From Procambarus clarkii (lineage: Eukaryota; Arthropoda; Malacostraca; Decapoda; Cambaridae), in the NCBI RefSeq assembly GCF_040958095.1, contig NC_091175.1, positions 24,619,339-24,683,338 on the forward strand: a stretch of DNA of 64,000 nucleotides, given 5' to 3'. The position numbers and the translations under genes were made by a program. Below, one piece after another: positions 24,051 through 48,468 of this stretch (its first letter is position 1; each line of letters starts with the position of its first letter). The notes under the pieces were generated by a model that made no database searches, had not been told where the DNA came from, and saw nothing but the letters and a program-made list of their open reading frames with translations.

Positions 24051-24340
24051 GTAGGTCTTCGATGCCTTATAATAGTGAAAAATCATATTTATCAATGCAA
24101 GTTTTCCGGGTGCAGGAACAATTGCACATGTAACACCTATCTTATTACCATTGTGAGATTTATTGATTCATAAGATGTCCTTTTCTTACAAAGGAAATGC
24201 CATACAATGGACAGATGACTTTGCAATATGGTTTAAAGCATATTTGAAGTGTTTCTTTCATCTTGCAGCTAGAGATAACCTTAGCCTGAGACAGTGGGGG
24301 GAGTAAACTAAGTGTCACATGTATGCACATAACTACTGGA
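24050..24340 (-). pseudogene. Decayed fifth C2H2 finger-pair unit downstream of the zinc-finger ORF
   Basis: The minus-strand reading gives PPLSQAKVISSCKMKETLQI, then FKPYCKVICPLYGISFVRKG and HLMNQ before stops, followed by remnants of a second finger (CYMCNCSC). This parallels the intact units (linker PPVSREKVLFDA, then YNKVNCPLCGIVF). The second zinc ligand Cys is Tyr (CPLY), and several stops occur. It is the relic of one more linker-plus-finger-pair module, cut off by a frame change just before 24,358. Confidence 0.7.
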
Positions 24341-24357: not shown

Positions 24358-26900
24358 TTAGCAAGTCTTTCCCTTGTTGCTTTGTTGCTGTGCCAAGATG
24401 CTTTTCCTGGGCGTCGATCCCGTGTGAGCGCGTAAATTATGTTTCACAAGGTTGACATCCTTGTTGAAAGAACAATCGCACATGGAGCAACTATAATACC
24501 TTTTAGCACCATGGCATTTCATGTGATTCTTGAGATGTCCTTTATTGGCGTATGTAATACTACACAGTGGACAGTTCACCTTGAAGTGCGGGTTAAATGG
24601 TCTTTTACGTGTTTTTTTATCTTTGTAGTTAGAGTGAACATTTTCCTGAGACAGTAGAGGAACAGATGAAGTCCCGTGCCCGTCTACTGAGTTTCTAGGT
24701 CCAGGCGTCGACATGCTTCCCAAGTCTCTCCCTTCTTGCTGAGCCACGGTGACCTCACTAATGATGGGTGCCTCATGAGAGAGTAGATTACGATCTTCAA
24801 TGTTGACCTTCTGCTTGAATGAACAATCACACTTGGTACACCGATATCTTTTATTAGCTCCATGGGACCTCGTGTGATTCACATGATCGTCTACGTTTGT
24901 ACATGAAACACCACACAATTGACAGTTCACTCTGTAGTCCGGGCTGGAGAAACTTTGTTTTCTTTTCCTTTTGCAGCTAAAGAAAAGCTTAGCCTGAGCT
25001 GACGAAATTTCAAGTGTATCTGGCGAAGTGATTTGCAGAGTCTGGGCGCTCGGCTGTACGGTCGGAATGCTCAGCTGCACGGTCGGGGCGCTCGGCGGCA
25101 CGGTCGGAATGCTCGGCTGCACGGTCGGGGCGCTCGGCGGCACGGTCGGGACGCTCGGCTGCACGGTCGGGGCGCTCGGCGGCACGCTCGGGGCGCTCGG
25201 CAAAACAGTCGACATGATTGGCCCAGGTGTCGACATGTTTGCCAAGTCTCTTCCTTCTTGCTGAGCCTGGGTGACCTCACTGATGATGGGTGCCTCCTGA
25301 GGGAGTACACTATGATCGTCAGTGTTGACCTTCTGCTTGAATGAACAATCACACTTGGTACACCGATATCTTTTATTAGCTCCATGGGACCTCGTGTGAT
25401 TCACAAGATTTTCTTCGTTTGTATATGAAACACCACACAGTTGACAGCTCATTTTGCAGTCCGGGTTACAAAGAAAACTTTGATGTTTTTTTTCTTCTAA
25501 GAAGTCAAGGAAAAGCTTAACCAGAAACACTTCAGGCGCAGACGAAGTTTCAAGTGTATGTAACAAACTACTTAGTGGAGTCTGGATGCTTTGCTGTAAG
25601 GCCGGGATGCTTGGCTCACGAGTCTGGGTGCTTGGCTCACGAGTTCGGGTGCTTGGCTCACGAGTCCGGGGTCTTGGCTCACGAGTCCGGGTACTTGGCT
25701 TACGAGTCCGGGTGCTTGGCTCACGAGTCCGGAGACTTGGCTTACGAATCCGGGTTCTTGGCTCACGAGTCCGGGTACTGTTCTCACGAGTCCGGGGACT
25801 TGGCTCACGAATCTGGGGGCTTGGCTCACGAGTCCAGGGGCTTGGCTCATGAGTCCGGGGGCTTCCCAAGTTATCCTTTTGTTGCTGATCCAGGATATTA
25901 TTCCTGGCCATCGGTGGTCCATGAGCTTGTATGTTGTGTTTATCAAGGGAGACCTTTATGTTGAAGGAACAGTCGCACACGGAGCATTTGTAAATCTTAT
26001 TAGCACCATGTGATTTTATGTGAATCGCAAGGAATCTTCTGCGTGGAAATACAATACCACACAGTGGACAGTTCACCTTGTTGTACGGGCTAAAGAGTTT
26101 TGTATACGTTTTGTTTATTTTGGCGTCAAACAAAACTTTTTCCCGAGACACTGGAGGAGCAAGCGAAGTATCACCCATGTTTCCTGAGGTGTTTGGTTGA
26201 GTAATAGAGTTCATCGTAAGAAGAGTCTTGCTTTGAATTTGGTGAGGGGAGTTGGAAATCATATCAAATAGATTATGTGATGTATTCTCGACTGTATTTG
26301 TCAATGCAACATCATTAGATAGAATCCATGGATTGATAGGAGACTCAAGATTAATATTAAAAGCAGGAGAAAATGGTGATCCAGAGCCATTGAGTGAGTG
26401 AATAGGTGTTTCCGGCACGGCCCAATTAAGATATGCATCAGTAGCATAAATAGGTTTCGAACTATCAAGATCATTTAAATCGGACATATATCCACGCGAG
26501 TTCTCGGAAGAAAATTTGAAGTTTGCTTCGTGCTTAGACATATATTCCACAGATTCTTCATTTGGGATTGAATGCTGGGAAGTAACAACAAATTCTTCAA
26601 GCTGCTCACCAGGTTGGAGATCCTTTTGTAGACGGTCAAGCATCTGGACATTCTGCAGCATGATTGGCTGTAAAAATTGCTCACCCCAGTGGAACTCAAC
26701 ATTTCCCTCAACCTGATGGTCATACGAGAGCTCATACCATTGCTGCTCAGGCCACTGACCTCGAGGAAGTTCAACTGCTTGGTGTCCTTGCTGCTGACGT
26801 TGTGGCTGACCACTCGAAGCAGTGCCATCACAATTAGAGAAAACCTCTTCCCCACATTGAGACTCAACTGGGACCGATGGAGGACTGTAGCTGGCACTGA
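24358..26900 (-). CDS. C2H2 zinc-finger protein, large terminal exon
   Basis: Probable DNA-binding nuclear regulator. The minus-strand frame is open from the acceptor CTGTCTTTTGTTATTCTAG (AG at 26,902-26,901) to the stop at 24,358, 846 residues with no internal stop. From the internal Met at 26,661, C2H2 fingers lie near 198-218, 226-247, 406-426, 580-600, 697-717 and 725-746. Two degenerate fingers near 434 and 608 have lost a His ligand. Fingers come in pairs, the second of each starting C-x2-C-DCSF. Linkers carry a TREPSTR heptad repeat (about 267-350), a PPSAPTV heptad repeat (about 488-543) and a basic KRKRK. The exon starts in a phase that accepts the end of the 45,527 exon. The last residues (SNKGKTC) look frame-shifted relative to the other units. 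Family and targets are unknown. Confidence 0.85.
25059..25205. repeat. Coding 21-bp minisatellite (heptad PPSAPTV)
   Basis: About seven 21-bp units, such as CGGTCGGGGCGCTCGGCGGC plus A, alternate between GGCGGCA and GGCTGCA forms and encode VPPSAPT/VQPSIPT heptads on the minus strand within the zinc-finger exon. Confidence 0.9.
25606..25866. repeat. Coding 21-bp minisatellite (heptad TREPSTR)
   Basis: About twelve 21-bp units with core CTTGGCTCACGAGTCCGGG encode TREPSTR-like basic heptads on the minus strand. The unit length equals that of the other repeat in the exon, but the sequence is unrelated. Confidence 0.9.
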
Positions 26901-26914
26901 CTAGAATAACAAAA

Positions 26915-29900
26915 GACAGTCAGTAACGCTGCCTACACAGTTATACTGCCTACACAGTCAGTTACGCTGCCTACACCGACAGTTACGCTGCCTACACAGT
27001 CAGTTACGCAGCCTACACAGTTAGTTACGCTGCCGACAAACTTACGCTGCCTACACAGTCAGTTACGCTGCGTACACAGTCAGTTACGCTGCCTACACAG
27101 TTACACTGCCTACACAGTCAGTTACGCTGCCTATACAGTCAGTTACGCTGCCGACACAGTTACGCTGCCTACAGTCAGTTACGCTGCCGACACAGTTACG
27201 CTGCCTACACAGTTACGCTGCGTACACAGTCAGTTACACTGTCTACACAGTTACGCTGCATACACAGTTACACTGCCTACACAGTTACACTGCCTACACA
27301 GTTACACTGCCTACACAGTTACGCTGCATACACAGTTACACTGCCTACACAATCAGTTACGCTGCCTACACAGTTACACTGGCTACAGTGTTACACTGTC
27401 TACAGTGTTACACTGTCTACACAGTTACGCTGCCTACACAGTTACGCTGCCTACACAGTCAGTTACACTCCCCACACAGTTACGCTGCATACACAGTCAG
27501 TTACACTGCCTACACAGTCCGTTACGCTGCATACACAGTCAGTTACACTGCCTACATAGTTACACTGCCTACATAGTTAAGCAGCCTACACAGTCGGTTA
27601 CACTGCCTACACAGTCGGTTACACTGCCTTCACAGTTACACTGCCTACATTGTCAGTTACACTGCCTACACAGTCAGTTATACTGCCAAAACAGTTACAC
27701 TGCCTTCACAGTAAGATTCATTGCCTACACAGTCACTTACACTGCCTAAATAGTTAAGCTGCCTACACAGTTACACTGCATGCGAAGTTACACTGAATTC
27801 ACAACTACACTGCCTATACAGTCAGTTACACTACCTACACAGTTACACTGCCTACACAGTCAGTTACACTGCCTACACAGTCCGTTACACTGCCTACAAA
27901 GTCAGTTACACTGCCTACACAGTCTGTTACACTGCCTACAAAGCCAGTTACACTGCCTACACAGTCAGTTACACTGCCTACATAGTTAAGCTGCCTACAC
28001 AGTTACACTGCCTACACAGTTACACTAAATTCACAGTTGTATGTTGACCAGACCACACACTAGAAATTGAAGGGACGACGACGTTTCGACTTGAGAATGG
28101 TCCAGGACGGACCGAAACGTCGTCGTCCCTTCAATTTCTAGTGTGTGGTCTGGTCAACATACTTCAGCCACGTTATTGTGACTCATCGCCTGCATGTAAA
28201 TTCACAGTTCCACTGCCTACACAGTCGGTTACACTGCCTACACAGTTCCGCTGCCTACAGAGTTACACTGCCTACACAGTCAGTTACGCAGCCAATACAG
28301 TCAGTTACGCGGCCTACACAGTTACACTGCCGACACAGTTACACTGCCGACATAGTCAGTTACGCTGCCTACACAGTCAGTTACGCTGCCTACACAGTAA
28401 CACAGCCTACTCAGTTACGCTGACTACACAGTCGGTTACACTGCCTACAGAGTTACACTGCCTACACAGTTACGCTGCCTACACAGTTATGCTGCCTTCA
28501 CAGTAACGCTGCCTACACAGTAACGCTGCCTACACAGTTATGCTGCCTACACAGTTATGCTGCCTACACAGTCAGTTACGCTGCCCACACAGTCAGTTAC
28601 GCTGCCTACACAGATACACTGCCGAAACAGTTACACTACCTACACAGTTACGCTGCCTACACAGTCAGTCAGTTACACTGCCTACACAGTTACGCTGCAT
28701 GCACAGTTACATTGCCTACACAATCAGTTACGCTGCCTACACAAATACGCTGCCTGCGCAGTTACGCTGTCTTCACAGTTACACTGCCTACACAGTTTCA
28801 TTGCCTACACAGTCACTAACGTGCCTACACAGTCAGTTACGATGCCTACACAGTCAGTTCCGCTGCCTACACAGTTACACTGCCGACACAGATACGCTGC
28901 CTACACAGTTACGCTGCCTACACAGTTAACTACACTGCCTACACAGTCCGTTACACTGCCTACAAAGTCAGTTACACTGCCTACACAGTCAGTTACACTG
29001 CCAACACACTAATGCTGCCTACACAGTTACGCTGCCTACACAGTCAGTTACGCTGCCTACACAGTCAGTTACGCTGCCTACACAGTTACACCGCCGACAC
29101 AGTTACACTGCCGACACAGTTACGCAGCCTTCATAGTCAGTTACATTGCCTACACTGTCAGTCAGTTACACTGCCTACACAGTTACGCTGGATACATAGT
29201 TGCACTGCCTACACAGTCAGTTACGCTGCCTACACAGTTACACTACCTACGGAGTTACACTGCCTACACAGTTACACTGTCTATACAGTCTGTAACCTGC
29301 CTACACACACAGTTACGGTGCCTACACAGTTACACTGCCGACACAGTTACGCTGCCTACACAGTAACACTCCTGACAAAGTTATGCTGCCTACACAGTTA
29401 CACTGCCTACACAGTCAGTTACACTGCATACACAGTTACACTGCCTACACAGTCAGTTACGCAGCCTATACAGTTATGCTGCCTACACAGTTACGCTGCC
29501 TAAACAATCAGTTACACTGCCGACACAGTTACACTTCCTACACAGTTACGCAGCCTACACAGTCAGTTACAATGCCTACACAGTTACGCTGCCTATACAG
29601 TCAGTTACACTGCCTACAAAGAAACGCTGCATACACAGTTACACTGCCTACACAGTTACACTGCCTACACAGTCAGTTACGCTACCTACACAGTTACACT
29701 ACTTACAGAGCTATACTGTCTACACAGTTACGCTGCCTACACAGTTATGCTGCTTACACAGTCAGTTACCCTGCCTACACAGTTTCGCTGCCTTCACTGT
29801 TACACTGCCTACACAGTCAGAAACCTACCTGCACAGTCAGTTACGGTGCCTACACAGTCAGTTACACTGCCTACACAGTTACACTGCCGACACAGTTACG

Positions 29901-32900
29901 CTGCCTACACAGTCAACTACACTGCCCACACAGTCAACTACACTGCCTACACAGTTACACTGCCTACACAGTCAACTACACTGCCTACACAATTACGCTG
30001 CCTACACAGTCAGTTACGCTGCCTACACAGTTACACTGCCTACACAGTCAGTTACACTGCCTACACAGTCAACTACACTGCCTACACAATTACGCTGCCT
30101 ACACAGTCAGTTACGCTGCCTACACAGTCAGTTACGCTGCCTACACAGTTACACTGCCTACACAGTCAGTTGCACTGCCTACACAGTCAGTTACACTGCC
30201 TACTCAGTTACACTGCCTTCACAGTTGCACTGCCTACATAGTTACAATGCCTACACAGTTAAACTGCTTACACAGTAAGTTACACTGCCTACACAGTCAG
30301 TAACACTGCCTACACAGTTCCGCTGCCTACACAGTCAGTTACACTGCCAACACAGTTACACTGCCTACACAGTTACGCTGCCCACAATTTTACACTGCCT
30401 ACACAGTCAGTTACACTGCCTACACAGTCAGTAACACTGCCAACACAGTTCCGCTGCCTACACAGTCAGTTACACTGCCAACACAGTTACACTGCCTACA
30501 CAGTTACGCTGCCTACAATTTTACACTGCCTACACTGTCAGTAACACTGCCTACACAGTTCCGCTGCCTACACAGTTACACTGCCTACACAGTTACACTG
30601 CCTACACAGTTACACTGCCTACACAGTTACACTGCCTACACAGTTACACTGCCTAAACAGTTACGCTGCAAACACAGTTACACTGCCTACACAATTACAA
30701 TGGCTAAAGCGTTACACTGTCTACACAGTTACACTGCCTACACACTTACGCTGCCTACACAGTTAGGCTGCCTACACAGTCAGTCACACTCCTTAAACAG
30801 TTACGGTGCCTACACAGTCAGTTACACTGCCTACACAGTTACACTGCTGACACAGTTACGCTGCTTACACAGTTACGTTGCCTACATAGTTAACTACACT
30901 GCCTACACAGTCCGTTACACTGCCTACATAGTTACACTTCGTACACAGTCAGTTACACTGCCTACATAGTTAACCTGCCTACACAGTTACACTGCCTACA
31001 CAGTTACAGTGCCTACACAGTCAGTTACACTGCCTTCATAGTTAAGCAGCCTACACAGTCGGTTACACTACCTACACAGTTACCCTGCCTACACAGTTAC
31101 GCTGCCTACACAGTCAGTTATATTGCCAACACAGTTACACTGCCTTCACAGTCAGTTACACTGCCTAAATAGTTAAGCAGCCTACACAGTCGGTTACACT
31201 GCCTACACAGTTACACTGCCTACATAGTCAGTTACCCTGCCTACACAGTTACGTTGCCTACACAGTCAGTTATATTGCCTACATAGTTACACTGCCTACA
31301 CAGTTACACTGAATTCACATTACACTGCCTATTCAGTCATTTACACTACCTACTCAGTTACACTGCCTACACAGTCAGTTACACTGCCTACACAGTCAGC
31401 TACACTGCCTACACAGTTGCACTGCCTACACAATCAGTTACACTTCCTACACAGTTACATTGCCGACATAGTCAGTTACACTGCCTACTCAGCTACGCTG
31501 ACTACACAGTTACGCTGCATATACAGTTACACTGCCTACACAGTTTCAATGCCTACACAGTCATTACCTTGCCTACACAGTCAGTTACACTGCCAACACA
31601 GTTACATTACCTACACAGTTACGCTGCCTACACAGTTACGCTGCCTACTGAGTCAGTTACATTGCCTTCACAGTCAGTTACACTGCCTACAAAGTTAGTT
31701 ACGCTGCCTACGCAGTTACGCTGCCTACACAGTCACTAACGTGCCTACACAGTCAGTTCCGCTGCCTACACAGTTACACTGCCGACACAGTTACGCTGCC
31801 TACACAGTTAACCTGCCTACATAGTTACACTGCCTACACAGTTATACTGCCTACACAGTCATTACGCTGCCTACACAGCCAGTTACGATGCCTACACAGT
31901 CAGTTACGTTGCCTACACAGTTACACTGCCAACACAGTTACACGGCCGACACAGTTACACTACCTACACAGTTACACTGCCAACTCAGTTACGCTGCCTA
32001 CACAGTCAGTTATACAGCCTACACAGTTACGCTGCATACATAGTTACACTGCTTACAGAATTACACTGCCTAAACAGTCAGTTACGTTGCCTACACAGTT
32101 ACGCTGTCTACACAGTTACGCTGCCTACATAGTGAGTTACACTGCCTATACATTTTCACTGCGTACACAGTCACTAACGTGCCTACACAGTCAGTTACGG
32201 TGCCTACACAGTCAGTTACGCTGCCTACACAGTTACACTGCCGACACAGATACGCTGCCTACACAGTTACGCTGCCTACATAGTTAACCTGCCTACACAG
32301 TTACACTGCCTACACAGTTACACTGCCTACACAGTTACACTGTCTACACAGTTACACTGCCTACACAGTTACACTGCCTACACTGTAAGTTACACTGCCT
32401 ACACTGTAAGTTACACTGCCTACATAGTTAAGCAGCCTACACAGTCGGTTTCACTGCTTACACAGTCGGTTACACTACCTACACAGTTACGCTGCCTACA
32501 TAGTCAGTTATACTGCCTACACAGTCAGTTATACTGCCAACACAGTTACACTGCCTTCACAGTCAGTTTCATTGCCTACACAGTCAGTTACACTGCCTAC
32601 ATCGTTAAGCTGCCTACACAGTTACACTGCCTACACAGTTACACTGAATTCACAGTTACCATGCCTATACAGTCAGTTACACTACCTACACAGTTACAAT
32701 GCCTACACAGTCAGTTACACTGCCTACATAGTTAATCAGCCTGTACAGTCGGTTACAATGCCTACACAGTTCCGCTGCCTACACAGTTACACTGCCTACA
32801 CAGTCAGTTACGCTGCCTACACAGTTAGTTACGCTGCCTACACAGTCAGTTACGCAGCCAATACAGTCAGTTACGCTGCCTACACAGTTACACTGCCGAC

Positions 32901-34155
32901 ACAGTTACACTGCCAACATAGTCAGTTACACTGCCTACTCAGTTACGCTGACTACACAGTCGGTTACACTGCCTACACAGTTACACTGCCTACACAGTCA
33001 GTTACGCTGCCTACACAATTACACTGCCAACACAGTTACACTGCCTACACAGTTTCACTGCCTACACAGTTTCACTGCCTACACAGTCAGTACGCTGCCT
33101 ACACATTCAGTTACACTGCCAACACAGTTACACTGCCTACACAGTTACGCTGCCTACACAGTTACGCTGCCTACTGAGTCAGTTACACTGCCTACACAGT
33201 CAATTACGCTGCCTACGCAGTTTCACTGCCTACACAGTCATTACCCTGCCTACACAGTCAGTTACGCTGCCTACACAGTAACATTGCCTTCACAGTCAGT
33301 TACGCTGCCTACGCAGTTGCGCTGCCTACACAGTCAGTTACGCTGCCTACACAGTCAGTTACGCTGCCTACACAGTTACACTACCTACAGAGTTATACTG
33401 CCTACACAGTTACGCTGCTTACACAGTCAGTTACACTGCCAACACAGTTACACTCCCTACACAGTTACACTGCCTACACATTCAGAAACCTTCCTTCACA
33501 GTCAGTTACGGTGCCTACACAGTTACAATGTCTACACAGTTACGCTGCCCACACAGTTACGCTGCCTTAACAGTCAACCACACTGCCTACACAATTACAC
33601 TGCCTACACAGTCAGTTACACTGCCTACACAGTTAACCTGCCTACACAGTTACACTGCCTAAACAGTTACACTTCCTTCACAGTTACACTGCCTACACAG
33701 TTTCACTGCCAACACAGTTACAATGCCTACACAGTAACACTGCCTTCACAGTCTGTTACACTGCCTACACAGTTACACTGCCTTCACAGTCTGTTACAGT
33801 GCCTACACAGTTACGCTGTCTACACAGTCAGTTACACTGCCAACACAGTTACACTGTCTACACAGTCAGTTACACAGCCTACACAGTCAGTTACACAGCC
33901 TACACAGTCAGTTACACAGCCTACACAGTTACACTGCCTACACAGTTACACTGCCTACACAGTCAGTTACGCTGCCTACACAGTCAGTTACGCTGCCTAC
34001 ACAGTCAGTTACGCTGCCTACACAGTCAGTTACGCTGTCTACACAATCAGTTACGCTGCTTACACAGTCAGTTACGCTGTCTTCACTGTCAGTTACGCTG
34101 CCTACACAGTCAGTTACGCTGTCTACACTGTCAGTTACACTGCCTACACAGTCAG
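26915..34155. repeat. Giant 7.2-kb minisatellite of mixed 17- and 21-bp units
   Basis: Two unit lengths are intermixed: CTGCCTACACAGTTACG (17 bp) and CTGCCTACACAGTCAGTTACG (21 bp), which differ by one extra CAGT. The base after TAC is A or G in both. The length implies roughly 350-400 units. It lies just upstream of the zinc-finger terminal exon on the transcribed minus strand, so it would be intronic. The plus-strand frames of up to about 300 codons (Leu/His/Ser/Tyr/Thr-rich) arise because the units contain no plus-strand stops; they are not genes. One foldback element interrupts the array at 28,026-28,209. Confidence 0.95.
28026..28209. mobile_element. Foldback insertion with 13-bp flanking repeat
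   Basis: The inserted segment 28,039-28,196 is flanked by TAAATTCACAGTT on both sides (28,026-28,038 and 28,197-28,209). It contains perfect 50-bp inverted arms (28,039-28,088 and 28,113-28,162) around a 24-bp centre and a right tail ending near CATCGCCTGCATG. The core GGACCGAAACGTCGTC also occurs at 49,045-49,060, beside a PLE. Probably a PLE-related terminal segment. Confidence 0.8.
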
Positions 34156-34436
34156 TTTCAAGGGATTTGTCTCTGTAGCAACAACTTTGACATCTACAAA
34201 AAATAAATGAAAAGCTAGCCAGTAAATAATTGAAATTTTAATCAAGCATGTAGTTATTAAGTGCAAATAGAGTTCTGGTAATCAATGGGAAAAATCAGCA
34301 TATCAAGTCCAAAAGAATGTTATTGTTTGTAATAAACACGACCTACTGACTAAAACTCAGCAAATGTTTTTTACTTAATCCGTGAATATTAAAAACAAAT
34401 ATGCGAGATACCCACTTATGATCAAATCAAAAGCTA

Positions 34437-34703
<267 letters not shown>

Positions 34704-34706
34704 ACA

Positions 34707-34900
34707 GCCAGCTCTGTTGGCCTAGTGGTAACTTTCGCCTCGCAAACCGTTATCTCTAAGTTCGTGTCCTGGTTAATGAGGATTGTCTGGACGGCAGTCC
34801 ATAATTGCTGGCCTGTGTTCACTCAGCAATAATTGGGTACCTGGTTGTTAACTGATTGGGGGATTGTGTTCAAGGGGAAAACTAATGAGTAAGGCTTACC
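34707..34900 (+). mobile_element. tRNA-derived SINE
   Basis: Box A TGGCCTAGTGGTAAC (from about 34,720) and box B AAGTTCGTGTCC (about 34,758) form a tRNA-like head. The body has CAGCAATAATTGGGTACCTG, related to the SINE body at 36,300. The 3' boundary is uncertain. Confidence 0.7.
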
Positions 34901-35376
34901 ATGAGCAATGGGAAGGAAAACCTTCTGAGCCTGCTAAGTGCTGTCGGATGCCGTTTATTTCTATACTCACCCGTTTAGAAAAAATAGACAAATCTGGCCA
35001 CCACCGTGTAGCACTTCTTCTAATATATTTTACATGTGTATTACATATAACCTAAATCCTAATCCTGATATTACTTCCCAAAACGTAAATAGAGAATCGG
35101 GCATATGTCTGTTCTAAAATAGGGTACTCTGCTGGGGTTTTTCCCCCCTCTCTTCCCCTGTCCTTCACTCTCCTCTCTCCCATCCTCTAAAAATCTCCGC
35201 CTCTCCACCATCCCCCCCCCATACCTTCTTTCTTTTATTCCCTCTCTCTCTTCCTTCTCCCCAACAACCTACTCATCCACCTCCCACCCTTATCTAAGTT
35301 AATACAGTATTACTATAAATTGATTATTGATAGAACTCTATTGATAACAAATACCATATTTCAGTGTAAAAACTAA
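34901..35376. other. No gene seen; pyrimidine-rich tract
   Basis: 35,134-35,290 is a C/T-rich strand (TTTTTCCCCCCTCTCTTCCC and similar), like the tract at 55,010-55,330. The rest is AT-rich intronic-type sequence. Confidence 0.5.
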
Positions 35377-36998
35377 TCTTATATAAATAAAAATGAAAAT
35401 GTTCGTTTGTTCAAAATCGCTAATCTCTCAAAGTTCTACACCGATTGTTTTGTAATTTTCACACAATGTTCCATTCGCACCCGAGCAGGTTTTTATATAT
35501 ATACTATATTGATGGCATGTCTGTGACGGATAAAAACATGTTTTTTTTAAAGAGTGTTTTTCAAGTGTTTTTCTTGCGAGAGAAATCTTTGAAACCTCTT
35601 TACCGATTGCTTTAAAATTTTGACACAACGTTGCATTCTAATTGGCGCGTATTTTTATATACGTACTATATACATGCCTTGCCTGTGACAGGAAAAAACA
35701 TGCATTTAAAAAAAAAACAGTGCCATCTGTTGGAAGTAAGAGCAACACACACCGTAATCTCCAAAGTTCTTACCAGACTGTTTTGAAATTTTGACACTAC
35801 GTTCCAATCAAATAGGCGCGTCTTTTTATATACTTACTATATAGATGCCACCTCTGTGACAGGTAAAAACACGCATTTTTGAAAAACAGCGCCATCTGTT
35901 GCACATAATAGCAACATACACTCAATACTAAATATGTCACGAATTTCATTTCAATGTTTGCAATTGCATTGATAAATTTTACTTTCAAAGATTTCGATTT
36001 ATTTTATTTTTTATTGAGTTATTTAGAGTGACATTGTGTTGGAATTGAGCTGTGTTGTTTACCATACCGTTCATTTCATAAGTATATGTATAGATGCCAC
36101 ACTTGAGACAAGTAAAACTATGCTTTTCTTGAATAACAGCGCTATCTGATGCATGTAAGAGCAACACACATGCTATTCTAAATATGTTACAATTCCATTT
36201 CAATGTTTCTGATTATATTACTGGACTTGTGATCCTGTGGTCCCGGGTTCGATCCCGGGCGCTGGCGAGAAACAATGTTCAGAGTTTCTTTCACCCTATG
36301 TCCCTGTTACCTAGCAGTAAAATAGATACCTGGGTGTTAGTCAGCTGTCACGGGCTGCTTCCAGGGGGTGGAGGCCCGGTCGAGGACCGGGCCGCGGGGA
36401 CACTAAAGCCCCAAAATCATCTCAAGATAAGAAGATACATCGATAAATTGAATTTTCATAGATTTTGATTTATTTTCATTTTGATTTAATTATTTTGTGT
36501 GAATTGCGTTGGAATTGAGCTGTGTTGTTTACCATACCGTTCATTTCATGTGTATAGTTTATTTTTTTATTTTTTAATATATTCATTTCATTTTTAAACT
36601 GCTTTTCTTATATTTCAGTGATGGGAACATCAGATCACTTGATGTTCCCAATTTTCTGATGGGAACATCAGACCATTTGGGAAGGCATCGGACGAGGGAG
36701 TGGGGAATGATGGGGATGACGAGGGGACGAAAGTGAGAGATGGTGGGGAGGATGAGAAGACAAGGGAGGGGGTAATGGTGGGGAAGGACAAGGGAACGGG
36801 AGAGTTTGGGATGGTGGGGACGAGGAGATGGGGGAATTGAGAATGGTGGGGAGGACAAAGGGACAAGGTGAGTGGGGCATGGTTGGGAGGCCGAGGAGAC
36901 GGGTGAGGAGGGAATGGTGAGGTGAACTTGTGAACAGGGAAGGTTGCTGTGGGTCAGCAACGCATGAGCCACAGCAACGCGTGGCTGGGTACTCCTAG
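35377..36998 (+). mobile_element. Non-autonomous Helitron C, both termini present
   Basis: Starts TC at 35,377 after an A and ends CTAG at 36,995-36,998, preceded by the hairpin region GTTGCTGTGGGTCAGCAACG. The interior consists of related modules of roughly 190 bp with GCGCCATCTGTTG, AGAGCAACA and TGACAGGTAAAAACA, then GGGAACATCAGATCACTTGA and a G-rich block (36,700-36,930). No Rep/helicase frame. A SINE is nested at 36,225-36,432. Confidence 0.85.
36225..36432 (+). mobile_element. tRNA-derived SINE nested in Helitron C
   Basis: Box B GGGTTCGATCCCGGGCGC (from about 36,245) is followed by GAGAAACAATGTTCAGAGTT, ACCTAGCAGTAAAATAGATA and GGCCCGGTCGAGGACCGGGC. I recognise this as a very common decapod SINE type. 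The 5' half of the tRNA head is shortened. Confidence 0.85.
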
Positions 36999-37000
36999 TT

Positions 37001-38545
37001 TCTATAAATAAAAATAGAAATGTTCGTTTGCTCAAAATCGCTAAACTCCGAAAGTTCTTCACAGAATACTTTGAAATTTTCACACAACGTTCCATTCGCA
37101 TCCGGGCGGGTTTTTATATACATACTTTATAGATGTTACGTCTGTGACGGGGAAAAACATGGTTTTTTTTTATCTATGTTTTTCATGTATTTTTCATCTG
37201 AGGGAAATCTTCAAAACCTCTTTACAGATTGCTCTGAAATTTTGACACAACAGTGCATTCGAATAGGCGAGTGTTTTTATACACCTACTATATATATGCC
37301 TCACCTGTGACAGGAAAAAATCATGCTTTTTTTTAAAACAGCGCCATCTGTTGGATGTAAGATCAACACATGCTGTAATCTCCAAAAAGTTCTTCACCGA
37401 TTTCTTTGAAATTTTAACACAACGTTCCATTCAAATACGTGCGTGTTTTTTTATACCTACTATATAGATGCCACACCTGTGACAGGTAAAAACATCCTCT
37501 TTTTGAAAAACTGCTCCATTTGTTGCACATAAGAGCAACATACACAATACTAAATATGTTACAATTCCATTTCAATGTTTCCGATTGCATTGATAAATTG
37601 AATTTTCATATATTTCGATTTATTTTCATTTTCATTTAATTATTTTGTGTAACATTGCGTTGGAATTGAGCTGTGTTGTTTACCATACTGTTCATTTCGT
37701 AAGTATAAGTATAGAGGCCACACCTGTGACAGGTAAAACCATGCTTTTTTTTTAACAGAGCCATCTGTTACATGTAAGGCAACACACGCAATACAAAATA
37801 TGTTACGATTCCTTTTCAATGTTTCCGATTACATTGAAAATTTGAATTTTCATAGATTTCGATCTATTTTCATTTTGATTTAATTATTTTGTGTGACTGC
37901 TTTGGAATTGAGCTGTGTTGGTTACCATACCGTTCATTTTGTGAATATAGTTTTTTTTTATTTTTTCATTGTTTTTCCATTTGTTTTTTTTAACTGTTCT
38001 TATTTGTCAGTGATGGGAACATCAGATCATTTGATGTTCCCAATTTTCTGATGTGAACATCAGATCATTTGGGAATGCATCTGAAGAATGAGTGGGGGAG
38101 GACAAGGGGAAGGGGAGTGGAGGATGGTGGGGGTGAACGATGGGACTGGGGTGGGGGTAATATTTGGGAGGACGAGGGGACGGGGGAGTTGGGCACGGTG
38201 GGGACGAGGGGACGGGGTAATGGAGAATGGTGGGGAGGACTAGGGGATAGGAGAGCAGGGGATGGTGGGGAGGACGAGGGTATGGGGGGAGTGGGAGATG
38301 GGGGAGGACGAGGGGACGGTGGAGTGGGGAATGGTGGAGAGGACAAGGGGATGAGGGAGGGGGGGGGGGATGGTGGGAAGAACAAGACGATGGGAGAATG
38401 GGGAATGGTTGAGAGGACGAGGGGATAGGGAAGTGGGGAATGGTTGGGAGTACAAGGGGATGCGGGAAGGGGAAAAATGGTGGGGAGGACTGGGGGACGG
38501 GAAGGCGACTGTTGCCACAGCAACGTTTGGCCGGGCGTGCGCTAC
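37001..38545 (+). mobile_element. Non-autonomous Helitron D, head-to-tail with Helitron C
   Basis: The 5' TC at 37,001 lies two bases after the CTAG of Helitron C. Same family: TATAAATAAAAATAGAAATG start, repeated internal modules, GATGGGAACATCAGATCA near 38,013, and a long G-rich block 38,085-38,500. The 3' hairpin (GTTGCCACAGCAACG) is present but the CTAG end has decayed to about CTAC. Confidence 0.8.
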
Positions 38546-38706
38546 TTTATATTTCCTAAGAATGTCAATGGGGCTACGGGTGACGATCATGAAACTCCTA
38601 TACCATTTATGTGCTATCTTGAAAAGCTTTGTAAGGCTAACGTAATGCATCTGGCCTACAACCTTGAAAAAGACACATACTTCTATAGATGTGTTGTTGG
38701 AGGGGA
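38546..38706 (+). other. Short coding-like segment, unassigned
   Basis: Between the Helitron D end and the LINE copy 2 3' end the plus frame reads FPKNVNGATGDDHETPIPFM, then CYLEKLCKANVMHLAYNLEK and DTYFYRCVVGGE, with no stop. It looks protein-like in composition. The following GTAAGT is part of the LINE tail (it also occurs in copy 1), so it is not evidence for a splice donor. Possibly a captured or truncated element gene. Confidence 0.3.
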
Positions 38707-38799
38707 AGTAAGTAATTATCAAAGAAGGCACCAAGCCGGGAAGGCTATGCAGCACCATCAAATGTGCGGGATAGTCAGTGGGTGCTATATATTACTGAG

Positions 38800-41700
38800 G
38801 ATGTCTTCGAGGGAATTCTATAGAGGGACAAGTGATCGCAGGGGACGATCGAAAAGCAAGACACACGCTCGTCCTGGAAGTCAAGACATTCAACTAGGAT
38901 ATGCACAACTGTAAGAGGGACAATGCAGTTAGAACAATAAGGAGCATGACGGCTCTCCATTAAATGTCCGTGAGTTAAGCGCATATGACCAATATGCAAC
39001 CTTGCCAGAGCCATTTCCCACCACTGGTTACGATGGTAGGAAGAGGGTCCCAGGGACACAATACTCTCAAGAGTACGCAGTTTGTTACCATTAACAGAAG
39101 ACGAACAACCCTGACAATGGGCAAGGATGGAGGAATTATTAACTGGGTAAAAGTCGGAATAAGAAATACCATTACGGGAGATAGTGCGGATAGAATCCCT
39201 AGCGGTAGCGTCGGCACTCTCATTTAAAGAGACACCAACATGGCTGGGAACCCAGCAAAAGTCAACTGTCTTAAATCAACTAGAGATAAGAAACAGCCAA
39301 TGTTGAATCTTGACTACCACCGGATGGGCTGGATTAAAGAACTCCAGAGCCATGAGGGCAATGCGAGAGTCACCTACAACCACAAAGGAGGATTGACAGC
39401 GAGAAAGCAGGAGCCGAAGAGCATAGCGAATAGTATAGAGTTATGCCTTGAAGATACTAGTCTCCCGAGGCAGGCGACACATATAGAAAAACAACAGTCA
39501 TGAAAAACGGTCATGAAAAACAACAGAGTAGCCTACACCGCCTGCTGACTTAGACCCATCGATGAAGATGAAAACGGAGTGGGAATGTAAAGGAAAGTGT
39601 TCAAGGAAAAGGCGTTTCAGAACTGTAGGAGGGGTAAAAGCTTTAGTGATGTGGGTCAGGGATTTGCAATATTAAGGAAGGGGGACCCTCCATGGGGGTA
39701 AGGATGGAACAACACGAGAAGAAATATTAGTAATACTAATCGAAAGAGAATGTTACAGGCGAGAGAACGGGACAGAAAGAGGAAGGTGGTGAAGGGGAAC
39801 AGGAACTACAGGAGGAAGAAAAGTCAAACTATGACACAGGCGAGTGTGAGGGTGTTGTAAGAATCGCGCAAGGTTGCAAAGGCAGTAGCGATCTCGGGGG
39901 TCCTGGAGAGATAGGAGGTTAGTATCAACGTACAGGGTGAAGGTAGGAGTAGAACGAAAGGCACCAGAGCTGAGGCGCAACCCCAGTATGGTGCAAAGGA
40001 TCCAGACGGCGAAGAGAAAGAAAAGAATGTGAAGGGCAACCATAATCGAGTTTAGACAGTTCGAGAGAGGAATGCAAAGAGAGGGGCGTGCGCCTATCCG
40101 TTCCCCAAGAAGTATGGGACAAAACCTTAAGTAGGGTAAGGGCCTTAGAGCATTCAAATCGGAGGTAAGAGATATGGGGCGTCAAGACAAACGAGTGTCA
40201 GAGATTAACCCCAAAAGCTTCGCAGAATCTTTGAACTCAAGAGGATGACAATAAAGCATCAAAGAGGGACGAAGAACAACATTCTTCCGAATAAAAGTCA
40301 TAAAACAAGTCTTGGATGCAGAGAGCTTGAAGCGATGGCCCAAGATGACATGGTATCAATCGCAGGTAAAAGCCGTTATTGAAGGGGAGGCGAATCATCA
40401 CCTCGACAGCAAAGATTAAGATCATCGACATAAAGAGCGGAGAAGATGCCAGAAGGAAGGGAGGAAAGAAGATCATTGAGGGCAACCAGAAAAAGAGTTG
40501 TGCTCAGAACACTACCTTGGGGTACACCTTCGTATTGCCGAAAAGAGGCAGAGAGAGTGGCACCAAGACTGACTCTAAAGGAACGACGAGAGAGGAAGAG
40601 AGGGAGATTACCACGAAGGCCAAAAGAACGAAGTTTGGACAGAATATGATATCTCCAACTTGTGTCATAAGCCTTTTCCAGGTCAAAAAAGGACAGCAAC
40701 AACGAAGGTCTTCGCAGCAAAAGCAGTACGAATATAGACCTCCAAGTTCACCAGGACATTAGTCGTCCTGCGGCAGTTGCAAAAACCAAATGGAGAAGGA
40801 GAGAGATGGTGATGGTGTTCCAAGAACCACATCATATGAACATTTACCATACGCTCCAAGAGTTTGCAGACACAACTCGTGAGGGAAATAGGGCGGAAGT
40901 CCTTAGAGGAGTCTCGAGAGACCCTGGTTTCCATATAGGGAGTACAACGGCATCGAGCCAGTCCTCAGGGACTGACGACGACTCCCAGACCTGGTTATAC
41001 AGACTCAGTAAATACAATACTGAGACATGCAAGGAGGGTGATGGCCAAGAATCTCATAATGTCATCAGAGCGTGCTGCCATAGATCCGCAGACGGCCAGA
41101 GCAGACTGAAGTTCAGAGAGAAGGGATCGTTATAGGGAAGGCGGAGATGAGTGCAGAAATCTAATGGATGAGATTCATGAACGGGCTTCCGAAGAAGGAA
41201 GGATTGAGGAAGATGAGAACCAGAGCCAACAGTAGAAAAATGTGAACCCAATTCGGTCGCGACCTTCACTGGGTCTGTAACAAGAATACCATGGAGGTGA
41301 AGGACCAGCGAGACATCTGGAACGAACTTGCCCGCAATCTCCGGATCTTCTTCCAGATCTATGGCAGGGGAGTATCGGACGTAATGGTGGGAACATAAGA
41401 TTTTCAACTCTCACGTTTAGCTGTACGGATGGTCCTACGGGCTATCGCACTTGCCTTCCGAAACAAAATAAAGGAATCAGTCGTCTGCCGGAGTTGGTGT
41501 ATCTTCCAGGCTGCACGGTTACAGCGGACAGCCCGAGCAAAATCCACATTCCACCAGGGAACGCACTTCCGCGTGCACTGGGATGTAGAGCCAGGAATAG
41601 TGCAGAAGGCAGCATCGAAGTCGGTGTCATGAAAAAGTAGGAGGGCGCGAGAAAGAGGCAGAGAGGAGAGGTCAGAGAGAGTAGCACGGAGGGTGAATAG

Positions 41701-42376
41701 GTTCCAGTCAGCCTTGGCAAACTGTCACCTAGGGAAGTAGAGGGGAGGGTGAAAAAAGAAAAAGGAAATGAGGATGGGGAAATGGTCACTGTTATGGAGG
41801 TCATCAAGAACCCACCACGTGAGATTTAAGTAAAAAGATGACAAGCAGAAAGGAAAGATCAAGACAGGAAAGGGTGCGAGTCCACATGAGTGGGCTCACC
41901 ACAATTCAGAAGAGAGGACGAATAGTTCGAGAAGGCAACGTCGGGTGTTTGTTAGAACATCGACCCATTGGACATGTCGACAGTTGAAATCACCCAACAG
42001 GAGCACCGGCTCTGGCAAAGAGTCCAGGAGGCGCTTACGATCAGGAAGGGAACGCAGGACTTTTGGGGAGGGGGGAGATAAATGGAACAGACTGTATACC
42101 ATTTACTCACAAAAACACGGGCAGCAGAACAATAGATAGGCAATGGAAAAAGAATGGAGACGAAGGGAATATCAGAACAAATCAAGAGAGCAGTAGAGTT
42201 ATGTGCCGCTGGGGGGGGGGCGGAGAAAGAAAGGAATAACCACGAAAGTGCCCAGGACGAGCAGCAAGCGTGGGTTCCTGGAGACAAACAATAAGTGGTG
42301 AAAACTGTGTAATCAGAAGATGGAGTTCATGGAAGTTGGCATAAAATCCACGAATATTCCACAGAAGAATAGACAT
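38800..42376 (-). pseudogene. LINE copy 2 pol: APE endonuclease - RT - RNase H, broken
   Basis: Begins MSILLWNIRGFYANFHELHL (ATG at 42,376), a typical APE endonuclease N-terminus, with VCLQEP following. GDFN is at 41,983-41,994, followed by RHVQW. RT blocks include DFRPISLTSCVCKLLERMVN, FFDLEKAYDTSW-type blocks and EGVPQGSVLSTTLF, with YVDD at 40,421-40,432. An RNase H DGSK-type motif lies near 39,560. A C-terminal Cys/His cluster (YCSNCIVPLTVVHILVEC) ends near 38,880. Several frame changes separate these blocks, so it is inactive, though its domains are better preserved than those of copy 1. Confidence 0.87.
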
Positions 42377-42443
42377 TATAAAAAAGAGAAAGGACAGCAA
42401 CAGAGAACAATGAAGAAACAAAAGTAAAGAAGAACAAAGTACA

Positions 42444-44364
42444 TTAAATAAGCTCAGGATCAGGGTCAGCAAAATTAGGGTTAGGGGGCATAGGTAAGCT
42501 TAGTAAGGATGGAGGGAAGGGAGCGGGAGGACAGACCAGAGGCAGACTAACGGGGCCCGGAGGAGGAGGAGACAACGGAGAGGGGGCTGTCAAGGACAGT
42601 AAGAGGAGGGGGGTAGAAACCACGGAGCGCACCTCAGTATGGGTAGAAACCGAGAGGGAATCGGAGGCTAAAGAAAACTTCATGGCCGAGACAGGGGACC
42701 CGACCACCGAAAAAGGAGGGGGATGTAGCGATAGTCAGAGGTGGGGGGGGGGCGAGGAAGAAAGTGATGCCTTTTTACCCGCTGGGGAGGTGGAAGGAGA
42801 GGAGCCAGGCTTACGTTTCTGACTCAAAAAGACAGGTGTTCCAGCAACAACGTACTGGGCGACAGACTCAGTGGTCTCAACAGGAGAAAAAGAACGGGTG
42901 CAAACAACATGAAGATTGCTGGGAGGATGATGGATCGCCTGGACAGACAGGCGGTGTGGAGGGCCAAGAGACTGGGGGGGGAGGGTTGGGAAGAAGAATC
43001 GGGGGAAGATGGGAAAGAAGACACAGAAGACATGGCAGATTGGGTAGGAAGGGGGGAAACTCCAGATGGAGAACCAAGAAGGAGACCCTTCGTGACAGAA
43101 CGTAAAGGAACAGGGGAGGAGGAAATGGGCGTGTCCGGGTCCAGGGCCTGGAAACGGTTGTGTGACTGAGGAAGATGGGAAGGATGAGGAGAGGAAAAAC
43201 ACAATATGTGAGTATAAGATACGTCGGTGAAAGGGTGGAGACGGCGGACTTGGCGTCTTGCTTCAGGGAACGTCAAACGATCCCAGTGTTTCATGTTGAG
43301 GACGGCTTCCTCAAGCCTGTAGTGTATACACGTGCAGGAGAAGGTAGGGTGGGCCTCACCGTAATTGAGGCAGCGAGCCTGGGGAGAAAAGCACAATGTC
43401 TAAGAGTGGTCATTGCCCCACACATAGGATATAAAGAGACACGACTTGAGCATTTGAGGGCACCGTGCCGAAACTTCCAGCACTTATTACAAAGTCTAGG
43501 AGAGGGGATGAACTCCTGAACTCATCTGGCACCAGCAAGAATGACAGAGGGCAGAAGGGTCTTACTATCGAAGGTGATTTTAACAACTCGAAGGGTCTGA
43601 TGACGACGACCACGAGGGGGTCGAGTGAACGTGTCCACCTGGAGGACTGGATAGCCTTGGGCTTCGAGGATATGTTTAATATCTTCATAGCAGCCTTTTA
43701 GGTTCCTAACACCAGTTGCAACATGGTCCGGGAGGATAACAGTGCCAACACTAGCATTTAACCGAGCGTTTTTGGAGACCCGAACAGGAGTCTCCCCAAT
43801 GCAGGACAATGGGGTAAGTGGGTAGCAACATCCTGAGAAGGAGCAACGATGACACGTGTATCAAGACGGGTGGGGTTAAAAGCAACAAAGGCATCTACCG
43901 AATTAACTAGGTGTTTATGGGGGGAGAAATCGTCAGGAGTAGAATCCAGATGGTGGAGATCAAAGTATTTAGCCCACGAAGCAGGAACAAACAAGGCATG
44001 GTACGTATTAGTATGGGAAGGGATTGTGCGAGAGTGGTTGTGGCGGGGACGGCGTTCAGAACCCCCAGAGAGAGGGGTTAAAAGACGCAGTAGTCATAAT
44101 GAGAGACTGGGCCGTGCCAGGGGACGAGGTGGTCACCGCTGGGGGCTTAGGGCTCGATCCAACCGCAGAGGAGGGAGGGGAGCCGAGGGGAGTAGTCAGG
44201 AGGGTCAGAGGAGGAGCTAGGTCTGGGCCCAATGTAGCGGGGGCTACAGAGCCCGGTCTTCCAAAACAGTCCGACTTGGGGGCTTGGTCGCCCACCCCAC
44301 GAGCCTGAGAAGTCAAAAGAGGAACAGTATTCAGCGAATTGAAAACGTGAGGTAATACTTTCAT
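42444..44364 (-). pseudogene. LINE copy 2 ORF1 (gag-like), broken
   Basis: Reads from MKVLPHVFNSLNTVPLLTSQ (44,364) down to the stop near 42,444 with several frameshifts. The Pro-rich N-terminal part and the segment VGTVILPDHVATGVRNLKGC match copy 1. Of the knuckles, CLNYGEAHPTFSCTC has Tyr for the second Cys. The C-terminal part is Ser/Pro-rich, as in copy 1. Confidence 0.8.
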
Positions 44365-44890
44365 TCATGAATGTTCCTGCGTATTCACAATGGAGCCACA
44401 ATTAGAACATAGGACATCCAACAAGAGACAGGTCTTGCCAGGGCCCCCCCAGGGATGTGTCGTGAGTATACTCCCCATAAACGACACCTTAAGAACCGTC
44501 AGACCATCGAGATCGAGTTCAGTGATAAAAGAAGAATTGACAATACAAGTGTCCCCTCACTCGTGATGTTGGGTACCACAGTTCTATGGGTGAGAGAGTA
44601 TGCCTCCCCAAACACCCGGGCGTTAAAACAGAAGTCCGAAAAAATAAACAAGACTGGCAAATGGTCGGTGGGAAATAACAATTAGCAAGGAGAATGGGGG
44701 GGGGGGGGGAGAAAAATGAAACACAAGAAAAAGGAAAAGATATCTGGCAAATTTGGTGATGACAGCAGCAGGAGCATAAGGCTTCAAACGGAATGAGGAC
44801 TGACCCATGGAGCATCACACACTCCGGCAGCCGTCCACCAAGCCCCCTCACGACGACAACGGGCCAGAAAGGGAGGGGAGGGGAGGGGGT

Positions 44891-45526
44891 ATTGGAGGGG
44901 AAATTAATAGAATCTGCCTCAGAATAATTCTGGCAATATCGCCTAATAGGTCTTTTACAGTTTCCTTAATTCATTGGTTCATAGTTATAGGTTAATAGGC
45001 CTAATGCAGTTTGATTTATTAATTTTTTCAATCACGTCACCCTTTTCTCTTCACCTTTCCTACAAATATATATTTTTCCAACCCCATCCTCCTGTTTACA
45101 TAATACTTTTTGGAACTATATGAACCATCATACACATATTGACGTAATGGAATATTAGTAGAATCTTGTGCTATTCACTTCATAGAGTCCGAAAAATAAA
45201 GCTAGAAACTAAAAAAAATTTCCTATGCCTTGTTTATCACATATATACTATATGAGGCCTCAGATGGTTAGGTTAGGTTGCATTAGCAACATAAAGAACC
45301 TTTTCCGGTTTGATCAAATTCAACAGTACCAAATTCTATTTTCTAATTAAATATTTCGTTAATATATGTACGTCTACATCGTCTACATCGTCTACATCGT
45401 CTCTTATCGTCTACATCGTTACGATAAATGCTCTCTAAACAGGATGGGCTGTTCTTTTCTTCTTTACAAAGATTTCTAATTCCCGGGATTTACCCAAGGT
45501 AAAACTTCTATGTGGAGAGCACTTAC
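44891..45526. other. No gene seen; small CGTCTACAT repeat
   Basis: AT-rich sequence, intronic if the proposed zinc-finger gene is right. 45,370-45,420 holds four or five 9-bp CGTCTACAT units. A short TTAGGTTAGG motif occurs near 45,272. Confidence 0.5.
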
Positions 45527-45631
45527 TTGGAGTTCTGTAGATGTCGCCGAAGAAGGGATCGGCGCTTTGTACTGATGTTCTCATCCCGAAGACATCGATG
45601 GTTCCACACGAATCGCCTTTTGTACATCCAA
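45527..45631 (-). CDS. Candidate internal exon 2 of the zinc-finger gene
   Basis: On the minus strand the acceptor TTTCTTCTTTTGTCAACAG precedes 45,631, and the donor CCAA/GTAAGT follows 45,527. The 105-nt exon is open in the frame set by exon 1 (two bases complete a split codon) and leaves one base for the next exon. It encodes GCTKGDSCGTIDVFGMRTSV, then QSADPFFGDIYRTP. The phase fits the acceptor of the 26,900 exon, which starts with two bases of a split codon. No domain recognised. The assignment to the zinc-finger gene is by strand, order and phase only. Confidence 0.55.
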
Positions 45632-45815
45632 CTGTTGACAAAAGAAGAAACTTTGAAACATTGTCAGATAATATCAGAACATATTATAATAAATTGGTCA
45701 AAACATATGGGTATTTTATTCTACAATCCAGATATAGTAAATTTAAATATAGCCTTCACTAGGCAAACAACTAAAGGCCTAGTAATTAACATCTTGTATA
45801 AAAAAATAAGCTTAC

Positions 45816-46023
45816 CGTTCAACGGAGTTGCCTTTGTACCAGTTTCGAAATTAATATGCATATCCAGGGACTTGTGGTCGACTACTTTGACCATATCAGG
45901 CTTCACGAGGTCTGCTGGGTTCTCATTGTTCTCCAGTACTCCGAACAATAAATCCTCCCTCCAGTTGGATTCCATCTTTAAGCTGTAATCGATATCAATG
46001 AACATTGGCAGTTCGTTATCCAT
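45816..46023 (-). CDS. Candidate first coding exon of the zinc-finger gene
   Basis: ATG at 46,021-46,023 (minus) has an in-frame TGA four codons upstream, supporting a true start. The frame runs 69 codons plus one base to a donor, GAACG/GTAAGC, at 45,816. The N-terminus reads MDNELPMFIDIDYSLKMESN and continues acidic (WREDLLFGVLENNENPADLV, later NFETGTKATPLN). Beyond the donor the frame continues only by chance. Joined to exon 2 and the terminal exon, the predicted protein has about 951 residues, with an acidic N-terminal region and C-terminal fingers. The promoter would lie in or near the (TA)n and MITE array at 46.06 kb and above. Confidence 0.55.
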
Positions 46024-46059: not shown

Positions 46060-46552
<493 letters not shown>

Positions 46553-46572
46553 ATATATATATATATATATAT

Positions 46573-47521
<949 letters not shown>

Positions 47522-47601
<80 letters not shown>
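47522..47601. repeat. (TA)n
   Basis: About 80 bp of TA repeats between elements 3 and 4. Confidence 0.95.
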
Positions 47602-47604
<3 letters not shown>

Positions 47605-47988
47605 GTACCTAATAGCCAGAACGCACTTCTCAGCCTACTATTCAAGGCCCGATTTGCCTAATAAGCCAAGTTTTCATGAATTAATGTTTTTTCGTCTACC
47701 TAACCTACCTAACCTAACCTAACCTAGCTTTTTTTGGCTACCTAACCTAACCTTACATATAAATATAGGTTAGGTTAGGTTAGGTAGGGCTGGTTAGGTT
47801 CGGTCATATATCTACGTTAATTTTAACTCCAATAAAAAAAAATTGACCTCATACATAGAGAAAAGGGTTGCTTTATCATTTCATAAGAAAAAAATTATAG
47901 TAAATATATTAATTCAGGAAAACTTGGCTTATTAGGCAAATCGGGCCTTGAATAGTAGGCTGAGAAGTGAGTTCTGGCTACTAGGTAC

Positions 47989-47991
<3 letters not shown>
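47602..47991. repeat. CCTAA-motif palindromic element 4 (orientation B)
   Basis: 390 bp and nearly identical to element 2, sharing small variants such as TAATAGCC at the left end and AGAAGTGAGTT at the right. Confidence 0.85.
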
Positions 47992-48043
<52 letters not shown>

Positions 48044-48046
<3 letters not shown>

Positions 48047-48433
48047 GTACCTAATAGCCAGAACTCACTTCTCAGCCTACTATGCAAGGCCCGATTTGCC
48101 TAATAAGCCAAGTTTTCATGAATTAATGTTTTTTCGTCTACCTAACCTACCTAACCTAACCTAACCTAGCTTTTTTTGGCTACCTAACCTAACATTACCT
48201 ATAAAGATAGGTTAGGTTAGGTTAGGTAGGGTTGGTTAGGTTCGATCGTATATCTACATTAATTTTAAATCCAATAAAAAAAAATTTACCTCATACATAA
48301 TGAAATGGGTAGCTTTATCATTTCATAAGAAAAAAAATTGAGAAAATATATTATTTCAGGAAAACTTGGCTTATTAGGCAAATCGGGCCTTGCATAGTAG
48401 GCTGAGAAGTGAGTTCTGGCTACTAGGTACGAC
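48044..48433. repeat. CCTAA-motif palindromic element 5 (orientation B, mosaic)
   Basis: 390 bp. The left half resembles elements 2 and 4. The right half (ATAATGAAATGGGTAGC) resembles the reverse complement of element 1, so it looks like a mosaic. Confidence 0.8.
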
Positions 48434-48468
48434 ATATATATATATATATGAAAACTCACACCCCAGAA

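Follow-up and report, generated by a model that had tools for sequence, protein, structure and literature searches.

A coding minisatellite that probably became the 3' end of an intron in a zinc-finger gene of the crayfish Procambarus clarkii

The conversion of exonic into intronic sequence by growth of a repeat has previously been proposed from amphioxus and human data. In human segmental-duplication paralogues, minisatellite-driven intron formation via cryptic splice sites has been described (De Grassi and Ciccarelli, 2009; PMC2812944), and for the 'mirage' minisatellites in the globin and Adh3 genes of amphioxus it has been proposed that repeats turn intronic once an acceptor exists, or arises, within the exon (PMC3087553). 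In this study, we analysed a 64-kb stretch of DNA from the crayfish Procambarus clarkii (the window), the minus strand of which carries a three-exon C2H2 zinc-finger gene with a very long second intron. The gene is already deposited; what we add is the likely origin of the last 7.3 kb of intron 2, namely that a coding minisatellite quite probably grew inside exon 3, lost its frame and became intronic via a downstream AG that was already part of the coding sequence.

Intronization is reportedly the subject of reference papers by Irimia and by Catania and Lynch, all from 2008. The crayfish locus has in common with the human paralogues (PMC2812944) exonic minisatellite variation among recent paralogues, and probably also a cryptic splice site through which the repeat would have become intronic. 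However, the human repeats average 160 bp with 30-bp units, compared with about 7.2 kb here, and the crayfish array differs from the human cases in being joined to an existing intron and in having its old acceptor still intact. With the amphioxus repeats (PMC3087553) it shares the location of a minisatellite at an intron/exon boundary, and the acceptor route proposed there fits the crayfish case, although the mirage units span the splice site while in the crayfish the repeat begins within the old exon, about 43 nt downstream of its acceptor, and excludes the site. In fission yeast, coding sequence turned intronic via a new splice site, but the accessible part of that paper describes no repeat expansion, and the crayfish case would extend the 3' end of an existing intron and make no new one (PMC3629103). 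Most of the putative fission-yeast intronizations were disproved by transcripts (PMC3629103), a caution that holds for the crayfish as well. Tandem repeats and intronization are handled as distinct origins of exon indels in a study from 2025 (PMC12457776). In the open-licence literature, we found by title no crustacean case of repeat-driven intronization, and we found there no paper that connects an AG exclusion zone with a branch point and a tandem repeat.

An initial annotation of the window had proposed three minus-strand exons with matching phases and an in-frame stop upstream of the start codon, and this gene model is confirmed as described. Exon 1 (45,816-46,023; all features of the gene are on the minus strand) begins with the ATG at 46,023, which is preceded 10-12 nt upstream by an in-frame TGA as judged by eye, and ends at the donor ACG/GTAAGC (slashes in sequences mark splice junctions). 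It is followed by intron 1 (45,632-45,815; 184 nt), by exon 2 (45,527-45,631; 105 nt) with the donor CAA/GTAAGT, by intron 2 (26,901-45,526; 18,626 nt), which runs from this donor to the exon 3 acceptor, and by the coding part of exon 3 (24,358-26,900; 2,543 nt), with 847 open codons before the terminal TAA. The 208 + 105 + 2,543 nt give 951 codons plus the stop, and both exon junctions are in phase 1. When the minus-strand splice sites were scored across the window with a simple weight matrix, the donors of exons 1 and 2 ranked 22 and 3 among 4,592 GT sites and the acceptors at 45,631 and 26,900 ranked 11 and 161 among 3,531 AG sites. In a scan for internal exons of 50-400 nt, with cut-offs near the scores of the model's own sites, exon 2 was the sole open and phase-compatible pair among five acceptor-donor pairs between 46,400 and 26,901, and also the sole such pair on the entire minus strand of the window. 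Residues 17-951 of the model are identical to the 935 aa of the NCBI protein 'zinc finger protein 48 [Procambarus clarkii]' (P0001), and therefore all four splice sites agree with the deposited model, which skips the array described below.

The window corresponds to 24,619,339-24,683,338 on contig C26 of the 4.03-Gb crayfish assembly, which we searched for relatives of the gene. A first search returned 88 matches, including relatives on contigs C18 and C41; 53 of these matches (hand count) fell within residues 404-543, a coding heptapeptide repeat, and were excluded as relatives. The 23 matches of a second search comprised six on C41, one each on C18 and C57, and 15 weak ones (expectation value, E, 0.05-0.32) on C24, C55 and C68. 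In each of the three C41 genes that were read, a first-exon segment with a phase-1 GTAAGT donor is separated from a last exon by an intron (403, 314 and 399 nt, respectively). Their first exon matches exons 1 and 2 of the window gene at a level reached by none of 300 shuffles in five of six comparisons, and by one of 300 for exon 1 against C41a1. Exon order and strand are thus the same in these relatives, which, together with the identity to P0001 from Met17, supports the linkage of the three exons. In the C18 stretches read, exons 1 and 2 gave chance-level matches only, and none at E 0.5 with C41 queries. A whole-genome search with the exon 1-2 peptide found the window itself only, with two matches up to E 10; this search was insensitive because only four candidates were scored, so that the C41 first exons were missed. 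As judged by acceptor and open frame, the last exon of the C18 and C41 genes has its start 81-87 nt upstream of the site corresponding to 26,900.

At the corresponding place, the window gene has a minisatellite of 17- and 21-nt units (TGTGTAGGCAGCGTAACTGAC and a shorter form), which spans 26,916-34,152 (minus strand) and which we read as former coding sequence. The array is about 7.2 kb long, and Tandem Repeats Finder reports 384 copies of 17 nt. The initial annotation had recorded it among the repeats of intron 2; the sister genes indicate that it lies within a stretch that they would still use as exon. At the far end of the array lies what appears to be a relic of the old exon-3 start (34,150-34,193, minus strand), with the putative old 3' splice site TTTTTTGTAG/ATGTCAAAG followed by about 43 nt of former coding sequence. 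This old acceptor, whose first exonic base is 34,193, scores 7.64 and ranks 5 among the 3,531 AG sites. The surrounding region is identical to C18 at 59 of 80 positions (E 2e-8, in a small search space), with the alignment running into the first repeat unit, and the likeness of the first 80 nt after the acceptor to the sister genes was reached by none of 500 shuffles for C18 and C41_2780 and by one for C41_2782. The repeat unit itself, doubled, resembles the sister exons to a degree seen in none of 500 shuffles for C18 and C41_2782, one for C41_2780, two for C41a1, three for C41a2 and ten for C41_2778. When the array is cut to a single unit, the resulting composite aligns end to end with five distinct sister exons, and the distance between the two acceptor sites is then 82 nt, compared with 81-87 nt in the sisters. 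Translated in the frame of the sister genes, the array unit gives CVGSVTD and the array begins with DKSLETDCVGSVTDSVDSVTDCVGSVTD where C41_2780 has EDKSLQVNCVVSLTVDASGVSPV, remaining open over 84 codons. When translation follows the frame of the old acceptor, a stop is met after 15 codons, and the stretch between the old and the present acceptor contains 290, 250 and 289 stops in the three frames. This pattern is characteristic of a coding minisatellite that has lost its frame. None of the 685 AGs inside the array outscores the acceptor at 26,900, and the best donor-like site within it scores 6.15, above both true donors. A 196-nt stretch of the array (28,023-28,219) is free of repeat anchors.

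The present 3' splice site of exon 3 (26,901-26,936, minus strand) is composed of the last array unit and a 15-nt T-rich tail ending in AG; the acceptor, TTCTAG/TC at 26,900, scores 2.72, and we infer that it is used in real mRNA. At the equivalent position the sister genes have CAAG/TC or CCCAG/TC within coding sequence, with scores of -1.5 to 3.15. Such a latent in-frame AG, 81-87 nt inside the exon, is found in all six sister loci scored, and in all six its distance from the main acceptor is a multiple of three. CTGAC, with its A at -20, is the sole yTnAy motif in the last 60 nt before 26,900; it belongs to the last array unit, which ends 15 nt before the exon, falls within the 28-nt interval that follows the preceding AG, and may be the branch point.

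The following history would account for these observations, although we infer the order of its events. In a crayfish gene family whose exons repeatedly grow minisatellites, a 21-nt coding unit (about C-V-G-S-V-T-D) near the start of the last exon would have multiplied to about 7.2 kb. The appearance of 17-nt units and a 1-nt shift would then have destroyed the frame of the array, so that splicing at 34,193 would now meet the stop after 15 codons. The AG lying 81-87 nt inside the exon (CCCAG/TC or CAAG/TC in the sisters and CTAG/TC here) would have taken over in the same phase, and the fingers would still be encoded because this pre-existing AG of the coding sequence, at 26,900, acts as 3' splice site. 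The former exon array would now form the 3' end of intron 2, with its last unit supplying the branch-point-like motif. Of the 18.6 kb of intron 2, such a takeover would account for about 7.3 kb. In a single genome, this family seems to include coding exons with one unit, genes without introns and an expanded intronic form, and the case is useful because the old and new splice sites, together with an apparent before-state in the sisters, make the steps readable from the sequence.

Several points weigh against this history. The exon-side 80 nt taken alone are weak against the C41a twins (39 and 36 of 500 shuffles) and C41_2778 (12 of 500), a 1-nt shift separates the frame of the old acceptor from the CVGSVTD frame, and the acceptors assigned to the sister genes, like their use of the long exon, are putative. 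Moreover, the acceptor at 26,900 scores below the one at 34,193, P0001 may have been computed with no reads spanning the exon 2-exon 3 junction, and the stop would also lead a gene finder away from 34,193. The polarity of the change is the weakest point. Three relatives, on C24, C55 and C68, were read from among the 15 weak matches, and all three are intronless, with both parts of the gene in one open frame and an exon-1-like part that runs directly into the sequence found after the 26,900 acceptor. Both parts match C41_2782 and the window, with no shuffle of 300 reaching the observed likeness in any of 12 tests. Between two anchor motifs there are 14 residues in the intronless copies, compared with 16 in the splice product here and 41 in C41_2782 (the latter two hand counts), and the segment of about 28 residues is absent from all three, which could mean that it is a later addition.

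Some of these points can be turned into different readings of the locus. It might be that the downstream AG is the older site, with a derived long exon in C18 and C41, or that the ancestor was intronless and the segment arrived with the intron; the array would then have grown in a stretch never translated by this gene. This reading, which overlaps with the history that we favour, has on its side the three intronless relatives, whose flanks are joined where the gene here splices, but it is just as possible that those copies are retrocopies and go back to an mRNA in which the downstream AG was used. The sequence of the copies is compatible with either such retrocopies or an older intronless form, and retrocopy status is unproven, since the 700 nt that follow the C24 open reading frame showed no poly(A) tract. 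In addition, the segment between the two sites is open in all seven sister loci (five distinct sequences, with lengths that differ by 3 nt), and the array is open for its 84 codons in the CVGSVTD-type frame, as expected if it was once translated, and we regard this alternative reading as rather unlikely. An error in the deposited annotation, such that the real transcript uses 34,193 and encodes a truncated protein while exon 3 is part of a decaying pseudogene, seems to us quite improbable. It would suit the higher score of 34,193 (7.64, as opposed to 2.72), the two of eight fingers that lack a ligand and the decay of a fifth finger pair, but exon 3 keeps its 847 open codons and its start is constrained relative to C18, with nonsynonymous and synonymous substitution rates (dN and dS) of 0.29 and 0.78 and a dN/dS of 0.37 over 101 codons. 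We consider it very improbable that an ordinary minisatellite was born inside a pre-existing intron and resembles the sister exons by chance. The introns of the window are indeed full of repeats, but the array matches sister exons in register at either end, the old acceptor is still there with its E of 2e-8, and the likeness of the unit beats all or nearly all shuffles, with 0-10 of 500 reaching it in six loci.

If a coding array was indeed turned into intron, the old acceptor might persist as a poison site, with array length setting the balance between 26,900 and 34,193 in the manner of a splice switch, an extension that we put forward as speculative and unlikely. Were it true, joining exon 2 to 26,900 would give the full finger protein and joining it to 34,193 would give a product that stops after 15 codons, and splicing would be tuned by the length of the array, for which variation among animals is to be expected.

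The deposited protein and our model are the same from Met17 onwards and differ in the start, which is Met17 in the former and Met1 here. The leader and first 16 codons resemble C41_2782 (MDNELPM as against MDQELEM; none of 300 shuffles) and show no resemblance to C41_2780 (82 of 300) or C41a1 (148 of 300). Met1, backed by one of the three C41 sister genes tested, is therefore favoured over Met17 and not proven, because the leader test fails for the other two. A Met17 start through an upstream exon spliced at GATTACAG/CTTAAAG, a site that ranks 301 among the 3,531, is possible. The deposited name implies orthology to human ZNF48, which is backed by no result here, and in the open-licence literature we found no published work on zinc finger protein 48 of Procambarus clarkii. 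Directly 5' of exon 1, at 46,062-48,536, there is a TA tract with tandem units of about 442-462 nt that are 79-99% alike and rich in TTAGG/CCTAA in both orientations. The three C41 genes that were read have no intron 1 in their first exon, and gain of this intron by tandem duplication is possible. Imperfect direct repeats (about GTACAAAGGC), judged by eye, flank it in exons 1 and 2.

Exon 3 has a Pfam zf-C2H2 match (E 2.3e-15), while exons 1 and 2 have no Pfam match of any kind. Its fingers of the form C-X2-C-X12-H-X3-5-H are arranged in four pairs on the minus strand, and six of the eight are complete: both are intact in pair A (25,921-26,070) and in pair D (24,424-24,573), the second finger of pair B (25,294-25,446) lacks its last His, and the second finger of pair C (24,772-24,924) has Arg in place of the first His. 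A decayed fifth pair with stops lies 3' of the stop codon (24,082-24,309, minus strand; tblastn with unit A, E 1e-14 in a search space of 858 nt), and the first AATAAA, at 24,164, is inside it, in the presumed 3' untranslated region. Two coding minisatellites sit in the linkers of exon 3, one of 21 nt x 12.5 with a TREPSPR-like heptapeptide (25,602-25,864) and one of 21/42 nt with an APTVQPS-like heptapeptide (25,040-25,201). The product would thus be a protein of DNA-binding type in which four C2H2 pairs are widely spaced, with DNA binding itself predicted from the motifs. Widely separated C2H2 pairs are known from HIVEP/Schnurri-type proteins, and the protein here is similar in having its finger pairs far apart in a long chain, although its matches are to generic C2H2 domains only. 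A fold predicted without an alignment gave no information (mean predicted local distance difference test score 31.8). In comparison with C18, the finger regions have dN/dS values of 0.88, 1.41 and 0.56, so that constraint is not clear there. Units B and C (24,772-25,446) have an exact 83-nt tract in common, with flanks that are about 20% different, which suggests gene conversion or constraint. A first sign of positive selection between these two units, a dN/dS of 4.0 over 55 codons, did not hold up: with 108 codons the value was 0.83 (binomial P 0.69). Protein searches, one of which scored only the 7,991 candidates with most words in common, returned P0001 and generic finger proteins and no further close relative; the orphan gene that this suggested is ruled out by the sister genes in the assembly.

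The sister finger genes occur in clusters (L013-L017 and L028 on C41, L009-L010 on C18) and differ in their coding minisatellites. In the C18 gene (L009-L010) the open frame extends over 2,182 codons and includes long stretches of such repeats, and the C41 twins, 10.6 kb apart, have open frames of 1,327 and 1,315 codons with coding minisatellites of their own. The 15 weak relatives on C24, C55 and C68 are likewise clustered (L036-L039), 11 of them with open frames of 360-372 codons, and the C24 copy, the one traced to its end, breaks off within the first finger pair. An open reading frame at 8,684-9,154 of the window was ruled out as a related exon.

Besides the minisatellite, intron 2 contains the GA/CA tract, the two Helitron-like elements and the long interspersed nuclear element (LINE) that had been noted initially. 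A pure GA tract of 92 units (34,441-34,624) is directly followed by a likewise pure CA tract that extends to 34,706; on the transcript these are (UC)n/(UG)n and precede the old acceptor by about 250 nt. Helitrons carry a 5' TC and a 3' hairpin with CTRR and insert at A/T targets. The first element, which is non-autonomous (about 35,377-36,998, plus strand), has a 5' TC and a 3' CTAG; the second (37,001-38,545, plus strand, right end approximate) is 83% like the first over 846 nt and also has the 5' TC, and a CTAG 3' end was not seen on it. The LINE (38,706-44,878, minus strand) has a reverse transcriptase match (RVT_1, E 1.4e-13), a weak RNase H match and endonuclease matches that fall below the Pfam cut-off, and it is 77-78% like a copy at 747-7,221. 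Elsewhere in the window, the pieces at 18,853-19,401 and 49,992-51,385, the latter with an RVT_1 match (E 1.8e-8) at 49,992-50,642, resemble a Penelope-type retroelement, and 19,293-20,158 is 79% identical to 51,385-50,599 over 868 nt.

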